A stretch of 64,000 nt of DNA. Source: Thiohalobacter sp. IOR34. Lineage in GTDB: Bacteria; Pseudomonadota; Gammaproteobacteria; Thiohalobacterales; Thiohalobacteraceae. A model generated the notes under the pieces. That model was given only the letters and a program-made list of their open reading frames with translations, was not told where the DNA came from and ran no database searches. Shown here one piece after another: positions 2,099 to 18,659 of the stretch. Position numbers and translations under genes: made by a program. Where the stretch lies: NCBI RefSeq assembly GCF_030406045.1, contig NZ_CP128988.1, positions 1,337,438 to 1,401,437 of the forward strand, in the 5' to 3' direction. The first letter of the stretch is position 1; every line of letters starts with the position of its first letter.

Positions 2099-3216
2099 GT
2101 TCGAGATAGAGACCTTATGAAGAAGGGATTAAGACTTCACAAGGGGCGGCCGGAGCGCGCACCATTCCTTGTTCGAGATAGAGACCTTATGAAGAAGGGA
2201 TTAAGACGCCGGAGCGCGCACCATTCCTTGTAGGAAATCGGTTCGAGATAGAGACCTTATGAAGAAGGGATTAAGACTCGGCCTCGGCCTTGGGCTTGTC
2301 GGCCGCGCGCGTTCGAGATAGAGACCTTATGAAGAAGGGATTAAGACCTTTTGCGCTGCGCTTCTTTCGATGCGCTCTTTTGTTCGAGATAGAGACCTTA
2401 TGAAGAAGGGATTAAGACCCAGCGCTGCCGCTGGCGTTCACCACCGGCGGAGTTCGAGATAGAGACCTTATGAAGAAGGGATTAAGACCCGTAGAGCCCC
2501 CGTTACCAAAGGCACCCCACAGTTCGAGATAGAGACCTTATGAAGAAGGGATTAAGACAGGCCGATCTCTCGCCATTCGGCGAGGGCTGCGTTCGAGATA
2601 GAGACCTTATGAAGAAGGGATTAAGACTCAGCGGCCGAGGCGGTGTCTACATCGAATGGTGTTCGAGATAGAGACCTTATGAAGAAGGGATTAAGACCGA
2701 GTCCACCATTGCTGGTGAACTCGTTCCACGCGTTCGAGATAGAGACCTTATGAAGAAGGGATTAAGACTGTCGGCCTTGTCGGCCTTGTCGGCCGCCCGC
2801 CGGTTCGAGATAGAGACCTTATGAAGAAGGGATTAAGACGCAGCTACGCGCCTCGATGTACCCCTCAACGAATGTTCGAGATAGAGACCTTATGAAGAAG
2901 GGATTAAGACGTCAAGGGTAAGGACCTCGCCAGCGGCTGAGGTTCGAGATAGAGACCTTATGAAGAAGGGATTAAGACGAGACCGCCCAAGAGATAACCC
3001 CTTCCACCGCATAGTTCGAGATAGAGACCTTATGAAGAAGGGATTAAGACCTTGGCCCATACGCTAAAAGCGTTTTGGGCCGTTTGTTCGAGATAGAGAC
3101 CTTATGAAGAAGGGATTAAGACGCGTAGCCTGCGGCGAACTCGCCGCGAAATTTCTGTTCGAGATAGAGACCTTATGAAGAAGGGATTATTGAGCCTTGC
3201 ATAAATGATGAACACA

Positions 3217-3789
3217 TCACAAAGGAAGCTCGGCCTGTTTCCAGAACGCGGTCACCAGTGTCTTCTGGCGTCGCTGCATGGAACGGAGCCTGCGCCGGGC
3301 ATAGTCACTCAATTCACCGATGTCCCTGGGACAGAAGTTACCCAGCTCATGCGGTTTGAGATGCCCGAACAGATATTCAACCGGGTTGAGCTCCGGCGAA
3401 TAGGCCGGCAGGAACTCGATCTGAATCTGCCCATTGCAATCCTCGACATACTGACGGACCAGGCGGCTCTTGTGGACCTGCAGGCCATCCCAGATGATCA
3501 GCAGCTTCCTGCCGATCTGGCGCTTGAGTGCCTTGAGGAACTCGATGCACTGGGGGGCACGGATCGTACCGGGGAACAGACGAAAGTAGAAACGCCAGAA
3601 GCTGACCCCGGCGATCACCGACAGCTGCTTCCAGGTGAAGCTGTACTGGATGACAGGCGTCTGTCCCTTCGGTGCCCAGGTGCGCACCAGTGTGGGCCGT
3701 TCCGACAGACCCGATTCATCGACAAACACGATCACACGCCCCTCTTTTGCAGCGTTTTTTTTAGTGCCGGCCAGCGCTTGGTCTTCCAC
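3217..3789 (-). CDS. IS630 transposase, catalytic DDE frame (OrfB)
   Basis: Carries the full DDE catalytic triad of IS630 transposases: D in VFVDESGLS, D in IIWDGLQVHKS, and E in YSPELNPVEYLF. It overlaps OrfA by 58 bases and is in the -1 frame relative to it, so a fused OrfAB of about 341 residues, the usual IS630 transposase length, would be made by -1 frameshifting. Independent initiation at ATG 3789 is possible but unlikely to give a functional DNA-binding enzyme. It is read toward the leader, opposite to the array. Confidence 0.9.
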   Translation of the reverse strand: MEDQALAGTKKNAAKEGRVIVFVDESGLSERPTLVRTWAPKGQTPVIQYSFTWKQLSVIAGVSFWRFYFRLFPGTIRAPQCIEFLKALKRQIGRKLLIIWDGLQVHKSRLVRQYVEDCNGQIQIEFLPAYSPELNPVEYLFGHLKPHELGNFCPRDIGELSDYARRRLRSMQRRQKTLVTAFWKQAELPL

Positions 3790-4220
3790 TCCCGCACCGC
3801 ACGCTCATCGCGCTGCAAGGCGCGCCGGGCCGGCCGCTGGCAGCTGAACCCCATGCGCCCCAGCACGCGGGAGACCTGCGACTCTGACAGCTGCACCCCG
3901 AACTGCTCGTCCAGCACCTTCCGCACACGCCCCAGGGTCCAGACCTCGGTGGCAAACCCGCTGGCCAGCGCGCCTTTCAACAGGATCCGCTTCAGCTCAC
4001 GCAGGTCGGCCTTGTCCAGCGAACCCGGACGGCCGCGCAGACCTGTCGACCGCAGCGCATCCAATCCGCCTTGTTCCAGGCGCCGGGCCCACCCGCAGAC
4101 CGTTGATCGGGCTACTCCCACGCGTCGCGCCACTTCCGCCTGGGGGACGCCTTTCAAGAGAAGGCGGCCGGCCCGCAGTCGCCGCTTCTCCAGCTCTTTG
4201 CATTGCGTCTTGCTGTCCAT
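3732..4220 (-). CDS. IS630 transposase, N-terminal frame (OrfA)
   Basis: A 162-residue protein with a helix-turn-helix region near the N-terminus (PQAEVARRVGVARSTVCGW, about residues 26-44) and a second winged-helix-like part containing LSESQVSRVLGRMGF. These are the DNA-binding modules that recognise IS630 inverted repeats. It lacks the catalytic domain, which is in the overlapping -1 frame. The stop codon is shortly after a run of eight A residues on the coding strand, a classical slippery site. It starts at ATG 4220 on the minus strand, 57 bases inside the inverted repeat. Confidence 0.88.
   Translation of the reverse strand: MDSKTQCKELEKRRLRAGRLLLKGVPQAEVARRVGVARSTVCGWARRLEQGGLDALRSTGLRGRPGSLDKADLRELKRILLKGALASGFATEVWTLGRVRKVLDEQFGVQLSESQVSRVLGRMGFSCQRPARRALQRDERAVREWKTKRWPALKKTLQKRGV
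3755..3762 (-). other. A8 slippery site for -1 frameshifting
   Basis: Eight T residues on the given strand read as A8 on the transposase strand, inside the OrfA/OrfB overlap. OrfA is read CTA AAA AAA ACG; slipping back one base gives AAC GCT and continues in OrfB. Such A-runs drive programmed frameshifting in several IS630-family elements; function here is inferred from position. Confidence 0.65.
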
Positions 4221-7060
4221 GGAATCCTCCCAACATACCCGATTCCATAGACAACGAAAACAGAATAATGTTCACTATTTATGCAAGGCTCAATAAGACG
4301 CGCCCTTGCAATCCCAAGGCCCAAGACGTCAGAGTTCGAGATAGAGACCTTATGAAGAAGGGATTAAGACAGTCATTATTGACCTAACTCGCCCTAAATT
4401 GGTTCGAGATAGAGACCTTATGAAGAAGGGATTAAGACTTCGGGTCGACTGGGCTATCCGGCACCAGATAGTTCGAGATAGAGACCTTATGAAGAAGGGA
4501 TTAAGACATATTGGATTTTTTTCATGTTTTTCTCCTCTGTTAGTTCGAGATAGAGACCTTATGAAGAAGGGATTAAGACTCATGAGGTGTGGCCGGAGAG
4601 ACATCCATTCTCTGTTCGAGATAGAGACCTTATGAAGAAGGGATTAAGACGCCGATCTTGCGGCCGACTGCTACGGCCGCGTGTTCGAGATAGAGACCTT
4701 ATGAAGAAGGGATTAAGACGCGCTCCATATCAGGCTCTGGTTCAGACAAGCGTTCGAGATAGAGACCTTATGAAGAAGGGATTAAGACGCGTCCGGCGAC
4801 GCCGACTTTTGGATCTCGACTACGTTCGAGATAGAGACCTTATGAAGAAGGGATTAAGACTCTTATTGACCAATCTACAAGCTGCTCTTGGAAGGTTCGA
4901 GATAGAGACCTTATGAAGAAGGGATTAAGACCCAGCGCGCGCGTTGCGCTTGCGCTGCGCCTCTGTTCGAGATAGAGACCTTATGAAGAAGGGATTAAGA
5001 CCAAGGCCGATCTCGCGCCATTCGGCGAGGGCTGTTCGAGATAGAGACCTTATGAAGAAGGGATTAAGACCGGCCTTGTCGGCCTTGTTGCCGTCGCCGG
5101 GCTTGTTCGAGATAGAGACCTTATGAAGAAGGGATTAAGACTCATTGAAGGTTATGACGTGGCCGGCCTTTGTGTTCGAGATAGAGACCTTATGAAGAAG
5201 GGATTAAGACGCGAATTCGCCGCGCAATTCCTTTGCGCGCTCCCGTTCGAGATAGAGACCTTATGAAGAAGGGATTAAGACCGATTCCTCAGCCTCTCGA
5301 AGAAGCTCATACGCGATGGGTTCGAGATAGAGACCTTATGAAGAAGGGATTAAGACACCACCGGCGGAGGCGCCTTGTCGGCCTTGTCGGGTTCGAGATA
5401 GAGACCTTATGAAGAAGGGATTAAGACCTCGGGCTGATCTCGGTATACCCTTTCATGAGGGTTCGAGATAGAGACCTTATGAAGAAGGGATTAAGACGGC
5501 CTTGAGGGCCGCCTTCTTGCTGTGATATACGGTTCGAGATAGAGACCTTATGAAGAAGGGATTAAGACCGCTATACATGGTTCTTTCTCCTGTGGTTTGT
5601 GTTCGAGATAGAGACCTTATGAAGAAGGGATTAAGACGCAGCATCAGGCCAGTTTTCCATCAGTCTTCGTTCGAGATAGAGACCTTATGAAGAAGGGATT
5701 AAGACGTCCATGTCGGACGCAGCCGAGAGGCCGGAGTGTTCGAGATAGAGACCTTATGAAGAAGGGATTAAGACCCACCAGGGGCATGTCCATGCACCCC
5801 TTGATGGCGTTCGAGATAGAGACCTTATGAAGAAGGGATTAAGACCGCTGCGTCCATGTCGGACGCAGCCGAGAGGCCGGAGTTCGAGATAGAGACCTTA
5901 TGAAGAAGGGATTAAGACCCTCGGATGCCCACCGAGCCCCGGCCATGGCCAGGGTTCGAGATAGAGACCTTATGAAGAAGGGATTAAGACGGCAGCGGGC
6001 TTCATAGCTCGATGATCTCTGCCGTGTTCGAGATAGAGACCTTATGAAGAAGGGATTAAGACGTGTATTCGCGGCCGTCTTCAATGGCGGCCGCGGGTTC
6101 GAGATAGAGACCTTATGAAGAAGGGATTAAGACTCAGCGGTCTCCAGGTACTCCCCAACGCCCCAGTTCGAGATAGAGACCTTATGAAGAAGGGATTAAG
6201 ACCCCATGGGCCGCCTCGGATGCCCACCGAGCCCCGGTTCGAGATAGAGACCTTATGAAGAAGGGATTAAGACGTTAGCATGTTATATGGGATTTTCATG
6301 GTCTTTTTGTTCGAGATAGAGACCTTATGAAGAAGGGATTAAGACCGCGGCTCCAGATGTAGTACACGGTCATGATGTGTTCGAGATAGAGACCTTATGA
6401 AGAAGGGATTAAGACGCGGGCGGGGGTCAGTGTCGATCATTCCTGCGTGTTCGAGATAGAGACCTTATGAAGAAGGGATTAAGACTCGGTGTTCATGATC
6501 TTACCCCTCTTGGTCTGTTGTTCGAGATAGAGACCTTATGAAGAAGGGATTAAGACCCCTTCCAGTCGACCGTCTTGCGGCAGCTCTCGAGTTCGAGATA
6601 GAGACCTTATGAAGAAGGGATTAAGACCACACACGGCCCGTCATTTCGTCGCTGACCTCGGTTCGAGATAGAGACCTTATGAAGAAGGGATTAAGACACA
6701 TCTTTGATGTCTCGTTCATCTACATCTCCTGTTCGAGATAGAGACCTTATGAAGAAGGGATTAAGACCAGGGCCAGGGAGATGCCCAACCAGACCGGTGG
6801 GTTCGAGATAGAGACCTTATGAAGAAGGGATTAAGACCCAGCGTCCACCGTCGCGGATGGCGTAGGTGTATTGTTCGAGATAGAGACCTTATGAAGAAGG
6901 GATTAAGACACCTCTTTGATGGTCATATTGCGCACCGTCACCTCTGTTCGAGATAGAGACCTTATGAAGAAGGGATTAAGACGGTTCACTCTCCTATTTG
7001 AATGGCATGGCAAGCTTGCCGTTTTCTCATCTTGCCTGACCTTGGTGTCAAGCTGTTCAC

Positions 7061-7345
7061 ATGCCGAAGCGGCAACTCTATCTGGTGGCTTATGATGTTT
7101 CCGATGCTAGGCGGCTGCGATGCATGCTCGGCGCGGTGAAGGCGCATGCTACCGGCGGGCAGAAATCGGTATTTGAGTGCTACCTCTCAGAAGTTGAACG
7201 GACAGGGTTGTTGCGAGAGGTCGGAGATATCCTGGATTTGGAGGAAGACCGTTTTTTCCTGATCCGCCTCGACCCCAGGTCGCGTGTGAGAACGCTTGGT
7301 CGGGCAGTGCCGGTGGCGGATCCAGACTTTTTCTATGTGGGTTGA
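7061..7345 (+). CDS. cas2: CRISPR-associated endoribonuclease/adaptation protein Cas2 (first copy)
   Basis: A 94-residue Cas2. The ferredoxin-like first strand and metal-binding Asp are in YLVAYDVSD (D12); the family motif KAHATGGQKSVFECYL and the C-terminal RLDPRSRVRTLG complete the fold. Cas2 forms the central dimer of the Cas1-Cas2 integrase. It starts 78 bases after the last repeat and no clear Shine-Dalgarno sequence is visible, so it may be translated from a transcript that reads through the array. The stop overlaps a possible TTG start of cas1. It belongs to a clearly different Cas2 subgroup from the second copy at 9112. Confidence 0.93.
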   Translation: MPKRQLYLVAYDVSDARRLRCMLGAVKAHATGGQKSVFECYLSEVERTGLLREVGDILDLEEDRFFLIRLDPRSRVRTLGRAVPVADPDFFYVG

Positions 7346-7368: not shown

Positions 7369-8316
7369 ATGGGCATGCTGTATGTGGATAGGAAAAATGT
7401 GGAACTGCGCCATGAGGGTGGCCGCATTCTGGTCTATGAGCAAGGCCGGTGTAGCGGTTCGGTACCCTTGGCGCAGTTGGAGGCTGTAGTGGTACAGGGC
7501 CATGCGCTGCTTGATACCGGCTTGCTTCGGGCACTTGCTGGAGCTGGGGTGGGTTTGCTGGTTCTTGATTCACGTCGACCGGAATTCACGTCAAGGTTAG
7601 AAGGGCGATCCCACAATCAGTCCAGCCGCCGGCTGGAACAGTATCGTCGTTCACTGGATGAAACATGGAGGGCGCGCTTCTCCAAGCTGTTAGTCAGGCG
7701 AAAGGTTCGCGAACAGCGGCGTCTGTTGGCCGAGGCGTTGTCGCGCCGCCCCGATTTGCGGAGATCTTTGCTATCGGCTGTGCGGGATCTGGATGCGAGG
7801 CTTTGTGAATTGGGTGAAGGCATGCCGTCACGCGAGCGTTTGCGTGGCCTGGAAGGGGTGGCAGCGCGCGACTATTTTCAGGGCTATTGTCGCCTTTTTC
7901 CACGTTCGGTCAATTTTACTGGACGCAATCGTCGGCCGCCTCGCGACCCGGTGAATGCGTGTCTGTCGCTTGCTTATACCCTTCTGCAGGCAGAGGCAGT
8001 GCGGGCGGTACAGGTTGCTGGTCTCGATCCCATGCTTGGCTTCTTTCATGATGTGGCATTTGGACGTGATTCATTGGCGTGCGATCTCGTTGAGCCTCTG
8101 AGGCCGAGTGTGGACCGCCTGGTCTGGGAGTTGTTCAGGATGAGGTCTCTGACCGCGGAACATTTCTCGTCGAGCGAAGGGGGGTGCCTCTTAGGGAAGG
8201 GAGGGCGGAGAATCTTCTATTCAGCATTCGAATCACAGATGCCGCCCATTCGCCGGAAGTTACGTAAATATGCACTGTTGCTGGCGCGTTCCCTCGAGGG
8301 GCGGGAGGATGCATGA
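7369..8316 (+). CDS. cas1: CRISPR integrase Cas1 (catalytically complete)
   Basis: 315 residues from ATG 7369, which has GGAGA ten bases upstream; a TTG at 7342 overlapping the cas2 stop is the alternative start. The N-terminal beta domain begins MLYVDRKNVELR. The C-terminal helical domain has the metal-binding triad E162 (LRGLEGVAARDYF), H227 (GFFHDVAFGR) and D239 (LACDLVEPLRP). Cas1 integrates new spacers at the leader end of the array together with Cas2. The stop overlaps the start of the Cas1-like gene by 4 bases, indicating translational coupling. Confidence 0.95.
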   Translation: MGMLYVDRKNVELRHEGGRILVYEQGRCSGSVPLAQLEAVVVQGHALLDTGLLRALAGAGVGLLVLDSRRPEFTSRLEGRSHNQSSRRLEQYRRSLDETWRARFSKLLVRRKVREQRRLLAEALSRRPDLRRSLLSAVRDLDARLCELGEGMPSRERLRGLEGVAARDYFQGYCRLFPRSVNFTGRNRRPPRDPVNACLSLAYTLLQAEAVRAVQVAGLDPMLGFFHDVAFGRDSLACDLVEPLRPSVDRLVWELFRMRSLTAEHFSSSEGGCLLGKGGRRIFYSAFESQMPPIRRKLRKYALLLARSLEGREDA

Positions 8317-9125
8317 GCAGGGTACTCTATCTCGATGGTGTCCGTTCCCTTCGGGTATTGCGGGATGGTCCTGCCTTGCGGGTATGCTGCCTTGGTGAGG
8401 CGGACCGGCTCTTTCCACTCGGGCGGTTGTCGCGGGTGGTAGTTCTGGGTCGCGTCGACTGGACGACGGATGCTTTGATGGCTTGCGCAGAAGAACATGT
8501 GGCGGTTGAGTTCCTGAGGCGTAATGGCACACCCAAGGCGCGCTTTTCATGTGTCTCCGATGAAGGCAAGCCGCTGGTGGAAATGGGTGTGCTGTTGGAC
8601 GAGTTGCTGGATGCTTCTGACGGCGACGAGCGTTATCACGCCTGGGTTGCAGGACAGGAGACGGCAGCTCGGCTGGCATTGAGGAATAGCAGTGACTGGT
8701 CTTCATGTCCGGTAGAGGCAGGAGCACTGCGCCGGATGCTTCGTCGGCGGGTTCTTCCATATGTACATGGTGTCGACCTGGATTGTTTCGACAGCCGTTT
8801 GAGGGGGTTGATCGTTGCTCTGTTGGACGGGTTGTTGCGGCGTTATGGTATTGATCCGGGGGCACCTTCGCTGACTGTTTCGGGGATCAATATAGCAGGT
8901 GATCTTGCAACGATTATTTTGTGGGAACTTGAACCCGGCAAGTTGACCTTCATCCGGCGTTTTGGCCGTTCAGCGCGCCGGCATACAGGTGGGAAGGCCA
9001 GGCTCCCGCTGTATTCCGCAGTGCGATTCTTCGAGGCACAGTCAGATGATATCTCGGAGAAATCGCAGAGATTACTGCGGCGCTTGCATTTGTTTCTCTT
9101 GGAGGCGCCGGGTGGCCGTTCGTGA
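8313..9125 (+). CDS. Degenerate Cas1 paralogue lacking catalytic residues
   Basis: 270 residues. The N-terminal domain is Cas1-like: VLYLDGVRSLRVL, then PLGRLSRVVVLGRVDWTTDALMACAEE and VAVEFLRRNG parallel the same positions in the upstream Cas1. The C-terminal part keeps a recognisable frame (GIDPGAPSLTVSGINIAGD, then LATIILWELEP aligning with LACDLVEPLRP) but has no counterpart of the catalytic Glu motif GLEG and no His in the FHD position; only the final Asp may remain. It should therefore be inactive as an integrase and could be a structural subunit, for example half of a Cas1-Cas1' heterodimer. It is coupled to cas1 by a 4-base overlap and overlaps cas2' by 14 bases. A divergent, unrelated fold is not fully excluded. 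Confidence 0.75.
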   Translation: MSRVLYLDGVRSLRVLRDGPALRVCCLGEADRLFPLGRLSRVVVLGRVDWTTDALMACAEEHVAVEFLRRNGTPKARFSCVSDEGKPLVEMGVLLDELLDASDGDERYHAWVAGQETAARLALRNSSDWSSCPVEAGALRRMLRRRVLPYVHGVDLDCFDSRLRGLIVALLDGLLRRYGIDPGAPSLTVSGINIAGDLATIILWELEPGKLTFIRRFGRSARRHTGGKARLPLYSAVRFFEAQSDDISEKSQRLLRRLHLFLLEAPGGRS

Positions 9126-9429
9126 GTCCCGTTTCTATCTTGTGTGCTACGACATCAGCGATCCGAGGCGCCTTGCTCGCCTGCATCGATACCTGTCGGC
9201 AAGGGCCGTTCCGGTGCAATATTCCGTGTTCATCCTTTGGGCAGATAGCGTAAAGGTCGATGCGTTGGTGAGGGAAATCCTCGAAATTATAAATCCCAGA
9301 GAGGACGACGTGCGTGTTTACCCGCTACCTAGGCAGATCGAGCTGGAAACCTTGGGACGCCGCGGACTACCAGAGGGTTTATTGCTGACTGGTGTCTCCG
9401 GTGCGCCGCTGCCCTTGCTGGAGGCATAA
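9112..9429 (+). CDS. cas2: Second CRISPR-associated Cas2
   Basis: 105 residues starting at GTG 9112, inside the end of the Cas1-like gene. The Cas2 fold is evident from FYLVCYDISDPRRLARLHRYL (metal-binding D14), VPVQYSVFIL, and REDDVRVYPLP with a late TLGRRGLPEG segment. It resembles the Cas2 subgroup found in other type I/III loci rather than the first copy (YSVF versus QKSVFECYL). A short tail after the usual end, SGAPLPLLEA, is of unknown role. It is the last gene of the adaptation operon. Two Cas2 lineages in one operon suggest either heteromeric or alternative integrase complexes. Confidence 0.92.
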   Translation: MAVRESRFYLVCYDISDPRRLARLHRYLSARAVPVQYSVFILWADSVKVDALVREILEIINPREDDVRVYPLPRQIELETLGRRGLPEGLLLTGVSGAPLPLLEA

Positions 9430-15070: not shown

Positions 15071-15947
15071 GTGCCAGCGGGCTTTGCCCGCGACGCCGCT
15101 CAAGGCGCGCGTATCCACTAACTCTGTAGGAGCGGCCACCAGGCCGCGATGCGGGCTCACCGCCGAATCGCGTCAAGGCGCGCGTATCCACTAACTCTGT
15201 AGGAGCGGCCACCAGGCCGCGATGCGGGCTCACCGCCGAATCGCGGCGTGGACGCCGCTCCTACACGGGCAGCCCGGTCACGCTGGTGGAGGCAGCCATG
15301 TTGACGCGACCCCGCTCAGGGCGCGGGTACCCGCTGACTGTAGGAGCGGCCACCAGGCCGCGATGGGATCTCACCGCCGAATCGCGGCGTGGACGCCGCT
15401 CCTGCACGTGTAGCCCGGCCAGGGTGGAGGCAGCCATGTTGACGCGACCCCGCTCAGGGTACGGGTACCCGCTGACTGTAGGAGCGGCCACCAGGCCGCG
15501 ATGGGAGCTCACCGCCGAATCGCGGCGTGGACGCCGCTCCTACACGGGCAGCCCGGTCACGCTGGTGGAGGCAGCCATGTTGACGCGACCCCGTTCAGGG
15601 TACGGGTACCCGCTGACTGTAGGAGCGGCCACCAGGCCGCGATGCGGGCTCACCGCCGAATCGCGGCGTGGACGCCGCTCCTACACGGGCAGCCCGGTCA
15701 CGCTGGTGGAGGCAGTCATGTTGACGCGACCCCGCTCAGGGTACGGGTAGCCGCTGACTGTAGGAGCGGCCACCAGGCCGCGATGGGAGCTCACCGCCGA
15801 ATCGCGGCGTGGACGCCGCTCCTACACGGGCAGCCTTGCCAGGCTGGAGGCAGCCATGTTGACGCGACGCCGCTCAGGGCACGCGTAGCCGCTGACTCTG
15901 TAGGAGCGGCCACCAGGCCGCGATGCGGGCTCACCGCCGAATCCCGG
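15071..15947. repeat. REP tandem array with a period near 140 bp
   Basis: About four full and two partial units. Each contains a forward REP (GTAGGAGCGGCCACCAGG...) and an inverted partner (CGCGGCGTGGACGCCGC...) followed by a linker with TTGACGCGACCCCGCTCAGG. Linker copies begin at 15301, 15439, 15580, 15721 and 15859, spacings 138-141. The array fills the mtnA-gyrA gap. Open frames through it repeat the same peptides and are not genes. Confidence 0.92.
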
Positions 15948-16059
15948 TATGGCCGATGTTCTCCACGGCATGCGTCCTCTCGCCGCCTCAGAACCCATTT
16001 CCGGGTCGTTTTCGGGCATGCAGTAGGTAACCCGCTATGGTAAGATGGGTGGAATTTAG

Positions 16060-16127: not shown

Positions 16128-18659
<2,532 letters not shown>

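Follow-up and report, generated by a model that had tools for sequence, protein, structure and literature searches.

A Cas1 paralogue lacking the catalytic Glu and His, a candidate non-catalytic subunit of a mixed type III-B spacer integrase

In known CRISPR spacer integrases, a Cas2 dimer sits between four identical Cas1 chains. Of the two chains in each Cas1 dimer, one catalyses while the other mainly positions the DNA. One cas1 and one cas2 gene do all of this in the canonical systems (E. coli I-E, E. faecalis II-A). The adaptation locus of Thiohalobacter sp. IOR34 encodes proteins of the same folds but has two genes of each kind, and one of its two Cas1 proteins appears to have no working active site. 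What would such a protein be kept for? We addressed this question in a 64,000-nt window (the whole stretch of DNA analysed, positions 1,337,438-1,401,437) of the closed 2.96-Mb chromosome and in related loci.

The four-gene block and its surroundings

The window opens with type III accessory genes and a CRISPR array, followed by the adaptation genes:

50-760, + strand: HEPN-Csx16-like protein, type III accessory (profile match)
763-1890, + strand: Card1/Can2-like CARF-PDDEXK nuclease, type III accessory (profile match)
2099-6982, + strand: CRISPR array, 54 repeats found, 37-nt repeat GTTCGAGATAGAGACCTTATGAAGAAGGGATTAAGAC
7061-7345, + strand: cas2a, 94 aa (profile match; a/b assignment by family)
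7369-8316, + strand: cas1a, active Cas1 with Glu, His and Asp
8313-9125, + strand: cas1b, Cas1 paralogue read as catalytically dead, 270 aa
9112-9429, + strand: cas2b, second distinct Cas2, 105 aa, GTG start (profile match)

The genes of the block, in the order cas2a-cas1a-cas1b-cas2b, overlap or are closely spaced. The cas1a ORF opens at a TTG (7342), with the family start at the ATG in position 7369; the cas1b ATG shares 4 bp (ATGA) with the TGA of cas1a, and the cas2b GTG start falls within the 3′ end of cas1b, giving a 14-bp overlap. Directly upstream of the window lie type III-B genes for Cas6, a CARF protein, Cas10b, Cmr3, Cmr4, Cmr5 and Cmr6 (PADLOC profiles; locus L003), and the ORF at the Cmr1 position has no PADLOC match at 1e-8. 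Across the whole closed genome there are exactly two Cas1 and two Cas2 profile matches, all within the four-gene block, and no further cas1 or cas2 gene was detected elsewhere.

Most type III-B systems are missing cas1 and cas2 (PMC9048733). Like the type III-B adaptation modules, including the RT-Cas1 of Marinomonas, the window system has its own cas1 and cas2; unlike RT-Cas1, no reverse transcriptase fusion is seen in the window operon.

One repeat of the array is interrupted by an IS630-type element (~3190-4294). The element has inverted ends TTGAGCCTTGCATAAAT and a duplicated TA target, and its transposase is broken into two minus-strand ORFs that overlap (3217-3789 and 3732-4220). Elsewhere in the window, an intergenic tandem array with a period of ~140 bp (15089-15953) precedes an ORF at 16128-18659 that is gyrA by reading only.

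Pooling the window array with the arrays of related loci gave 898 spacers. In 58 of them a ribosome-binding site with an ATG lies opposite the crRNA strand; the crRNA strand itself has 14 such cases, where ~15 would be expected. All 13 pairs of overlapping spacers lie on the same strand. With spacers biased antisense to mRNA and enriched over translation starts, whether through selection or through biased uptake, the window and related arrays seem to be aimed at mRNA, which a type III system requires.

Fold and active site of Cas1b

The original prediction described 8313-9125 as a Cas1 paralogue with no stop codon or frameshift, and both points hold: the cas1b ORF is intact over 270 codons on the + strand, and Pfam Cas_Cas1 (PF01867) matches residues 17-80 (E 1.1e-6, 28.5 bits against a curated cut-off of 22.3). 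This match is confined to the N-terminal part of the protein. Comparing the profiles of 58 Cas1b and 81 Cas1a proteins (hhalign) aligned the two families over 257 columns, with a probability of 99% and an E value of 1.3e-18. Against TIGR00287, the equivalog of active Cas1, Cas1b scores 24 bits, below the cut-off of 71.7.

A single-chain structure model, built with 53 natural relatives alongside the window protein, reached a mean pLDDT of 94.4 and a pTM of 0.90. All matches listed by Foldseek are Cas1 or casposase chains. VIA-align superposes the model on Pyrococcus Cas1 (PH1245) with a Z score of 19.7 and 3.3 A over 249 residues, and Z scores against Cas1 structures are 15-20, spanning Cas1b residues 1-267. 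The predicted fold is that of a complete Cas1, with an N-terminal beta domain and a C-terminal helical domain.

The active site had been described as stripped, which holds for the Glu and the His and needs refining for the Asp. In the family alignment, all three catalytic residues are present in 81 of 81 Cas1a proteins (E171, H236 and D248 in the window protein, counting from the TTG at 7342). The window Cas1b has lost the Glu-bearing block GLEG...RPPRDP by deletion and has no His, but its D197 aligns with the catalytic Asp, which 41 of 58 family members retain. In the basal Cas1b proteins of loci L095 and L101, GLDPxxGxxH and the subsequent Asp are still present, motifs that anchor the C-terminal half of Cas1b as Cas1. 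In the alignment these two look like intermediates, and the Glu could be partly retained in L095. The original observation is thus confirmed at the level of sequence and model, and Cas1b reads as a pseudoenzyme that keeps the Cas1 shape and has lost a working active site.

The best PADLOC match of Cas1b is PDLC01185, 'Cas1, diverged variant, second in the loci' (E 1.2e-8, residues 5-206). In keeping with that name, the window cas1b directly follows another cas1, and all genome matches of the profile lie behind cas1a in the same block, except for one plain Cas1 (L037). The existence of the profile indicates that PADLOC curators had already noticed this kind of gene, which it records as a name only. 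The open-access literature, to which the search was limited, gave no account of a dead second Cas1 (its active-site loss, structure or function), of the second Cas2 or of the four-gene module, which is a weak negative. Four things go beyond the original prediction: a second, distinct cas2 (9112-9429), the Asp that Cas1b retains, the conservation of all four genes as a block, and a PADLOC profile that already covers such proteins.

Conservation, constraint and loss

A scan for close relatives with Cas1b alone as bait found nothing. Cas1a then served as bait, and 80 named loci were chosen by Cas1a similarity, 57 of which encode Cas1b. These dual loci have cas2a in 57 of 57 cases and cas2b in 56, the contig of the last one ending too early. 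The block is also carried by 15 other genomes, retrieved with Cas1b or PDLC01185 searches, and cas2b is out of reach only in L035, where the contig ends inside cas1b. The gene order is kept with few exceptions: L097 is reordered, and in L095 cas2b lies 2.4 kb further on. Hosts of Cas1b span at least five phyla, including Pseudomonadota, Nitrospirota, Acidobacteriota, Planctomycetota and Myxococcota, so that cas2a-cas1a-cas1b-cas2b is kept together across dozens of distant bacteria. When 369 genomes of the class were scanned with a Cas1b profile, 19 full-length matches emerged, its own genome among them (E 7e-85 to 6e-34); after a gap, ordinary Cas1 proteins followed at E 3.5e-11 and weaker. 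A homologue of a window type III gene lies within reach in 43 of the 57 dual loci; since L112 carries Csm4 and Csm5, the four-gene module is not confined to III-B.

Cas1b had also been proposed to be under selection, and the family bears this out, with signs of purifying selection. Neither outcome named beforehand as refuting the prediction occurred: the model has the Cas1 fold, and relatives show no relaxed selection with premature stops. Its frames are open in 57 of 57 named loci, the matches in the 369 genomes contain no stops, and dN/dS in five close pairs (simple pairwise Nei-Gojobori) is 0.17-0.28, compared with 0.10-0.39 for Cas1a. For Cas1b, values climb to ~0.6 in more distant pairs, and in most pairs it is the faster-evolving of the two proteins. 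The two proteins also differ in where they are conserved: over the same 58 loci, mean pairwise identity in Cas1b is 33% for the N-terminal and 19% for the C-terminal domain, compared to 40% and 51% in Cas1a. By these identities, constraint in Cas1b has shifted away from the catalytic domain and onto the N-terminal one, the reverse of Cas1a.

A close Cas1a without Cas1b is found in 22 loci, mostly arranged cas2a-cas1a-cas2b; 15 of them form one clade and 7 are scattered within the dual clade. Cas1b is evidently dispensable on the evolutionary scale, and Cas1a can manage without it. As these single loci mostly keep both Cas2 genes, the use of two Cas2 is here older or more general than that of two Cas1. 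The clade with two different Cas2 genes around one Cas1 comprises L075-L080, L082, L083, L091, L092, L096, L107, L108, L111 and L115. A more distant system, L139, has two Cas2-like ORFs side by side, beside one Cas1.

In the rooted tree, the dual group L095/L100/L101 branches first, although the outgroup is not clean and the rooting is weak. With a dual group at the base, one early gain of Cas1b followed by repeated loss is the simplest and likely reading, subject to that weak rooting. L098 is counted as dual in this tree only. Its apparent in-frame Cas1b-Cas2b fusion (L098:6948-7979), at first sight a strong sign of contact between the two proteins, was excluded from the evidence because another frame ends in a normal ATGA overlap with cas2b and a frameshift is as likely. 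A tblastn search of plasmids and phages with Cas1b gave no match.

No footprint of Cas1b was found in the arrays, as spacer orientation and lengths look alike in systems with and without it. The idea that Cas1b sets spacer orientation is not supported, since the same antisense bias occurs in both. Repeats are 37 nt long in most dual loci and 36 nt in the basal single clade; a link to Cas1b was rejected because nested loci without it (L061, L070, L071, L110) also have 37-nt repeats, and repeat length thus follows descent.

A mixed integrase and its alternatives

Since Cas1b and the second Cas2 are kept together in the block, such systems probably assemble their spacer integrase from two kinds each of Cas1 and Cas2. 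The original prediction left the choice between a structural and a regulatory role; such a role is supported, and we favour the structural one. Known integrases are hexameric, with four Cas1 and two Cas2 subunits (PMC9048733), and in a known complex the non-catalytic Cas1 chain contacts the repeat (PMC6895254). With its whole fold, conserved N-terminal domain and missing active site, Cas1b fits the non-catalytic Cas1 place, and the second Cas2 fits a mixed Cas2 pair.

We therefore consider it probable, with some reserve, that this type III-B system has a mixed Cas1a/Cas1b-Cas2a/Cas2b spacer integrase in which Cas1b is the dedicated non-catalytic subunit. Cas1a would carry out both transesterifications and Cas1b would pair with it as a structural chain. 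A Cas2a-Cas2b pair would form the centre, and the whole would be mixed and possibly asymmetric. The step served by Cas1b may be holding the prespacer or measuring the repeat. We infer the physical complex, its stoichiometry, the placement of the subunits and the step served from the gene content, fold and conservation described above. Against this reading stand the 22 loci that lack Cas1b, the dN/dS of ~0.6 in more distant pairs and the arrays, in which spacers with and without Cas1b look alike.

Partial correlations of evolutionary distances are 0.49 for Cas1a-Cas1b, 0.50 for Cas1a-Cas2a, 0.30 for Cas1b-Cas2b, 0.22 for Cas2a-Cas2b and 0.05 for Cas1a-Cas2b. They support neighbours in the order 2a-1a-1b-2b, a pattern that gene order or co-inheritance alone could also give. 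No more than five Cas1a columns tell dual and single systems apart, which is not enough to indicate an interface.

The same values bear on another arrangement, in which Cas1b and Cas2b would form a sub-complex of their own that captures or trims prespacers and passes them to an ordinary Cas1a-Cas2a integrase. The distances of Cas1b and Cas2b remain linked after controlling for the others while those of Cas1a and Cas2b do not, and a dead Cas1 with a positive net charge (median +6) could still bind DNA. However, the Cas1a-Cas1b link is the stronger one, and Cas2b is kept in most loci without Cas1b and hence is not tied to Cas1b alone. We consider this arrangement unlikely.

Dead paralogues are often dominant-negative partners, and Cas1b could in principle be a regulator that damps acquisition through inactive mixed dimers with Cas1a, at a dose fixed by the operon overlaps. 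Nonetheless, a permanent inhibitor with a 4-base overlap on its target gene leaves no obvious regulation, and arrays in systems with Cas1b are long, with 54 repeats in the window and up to 61 in L112, making this role rather improbable. That Cas1b is a decaying duplicate kept by linkage only would agree with its faster evolution and repeated loss, but is refuted for the family, and very improbable here, by the open frames, the genome matches free of stops, the close-pair dN/dS well below 1, the intact fold predicted at high confidence and the spread over phyla.

The mixed integrase thus remains our preferred reading. Whether it extends to a widespread class of type III systems, with an asymmetric integrase of two Cas1 and two Cas2 paralogues in which catalysis would reside only in Cas1a and DNA positioning in Cas1b, we judge to be an even bet.

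If true, this would be, as far as we have found, the first case of a CRISPR integrase whose catalytic and non-catalytic Cas1 roles are genetically separate. In ordinary complexes both roles belong to the same protein and are hard to mutate apart; here nature has apparently separated them. The module would make it possible to ask what the non-catalytic Cas1 gives to integration, be it prespacer length, repeat measuring or side selection, and to test the integrase for asymmetry. A family known to us only as the name of a profile would thereby gain a role.
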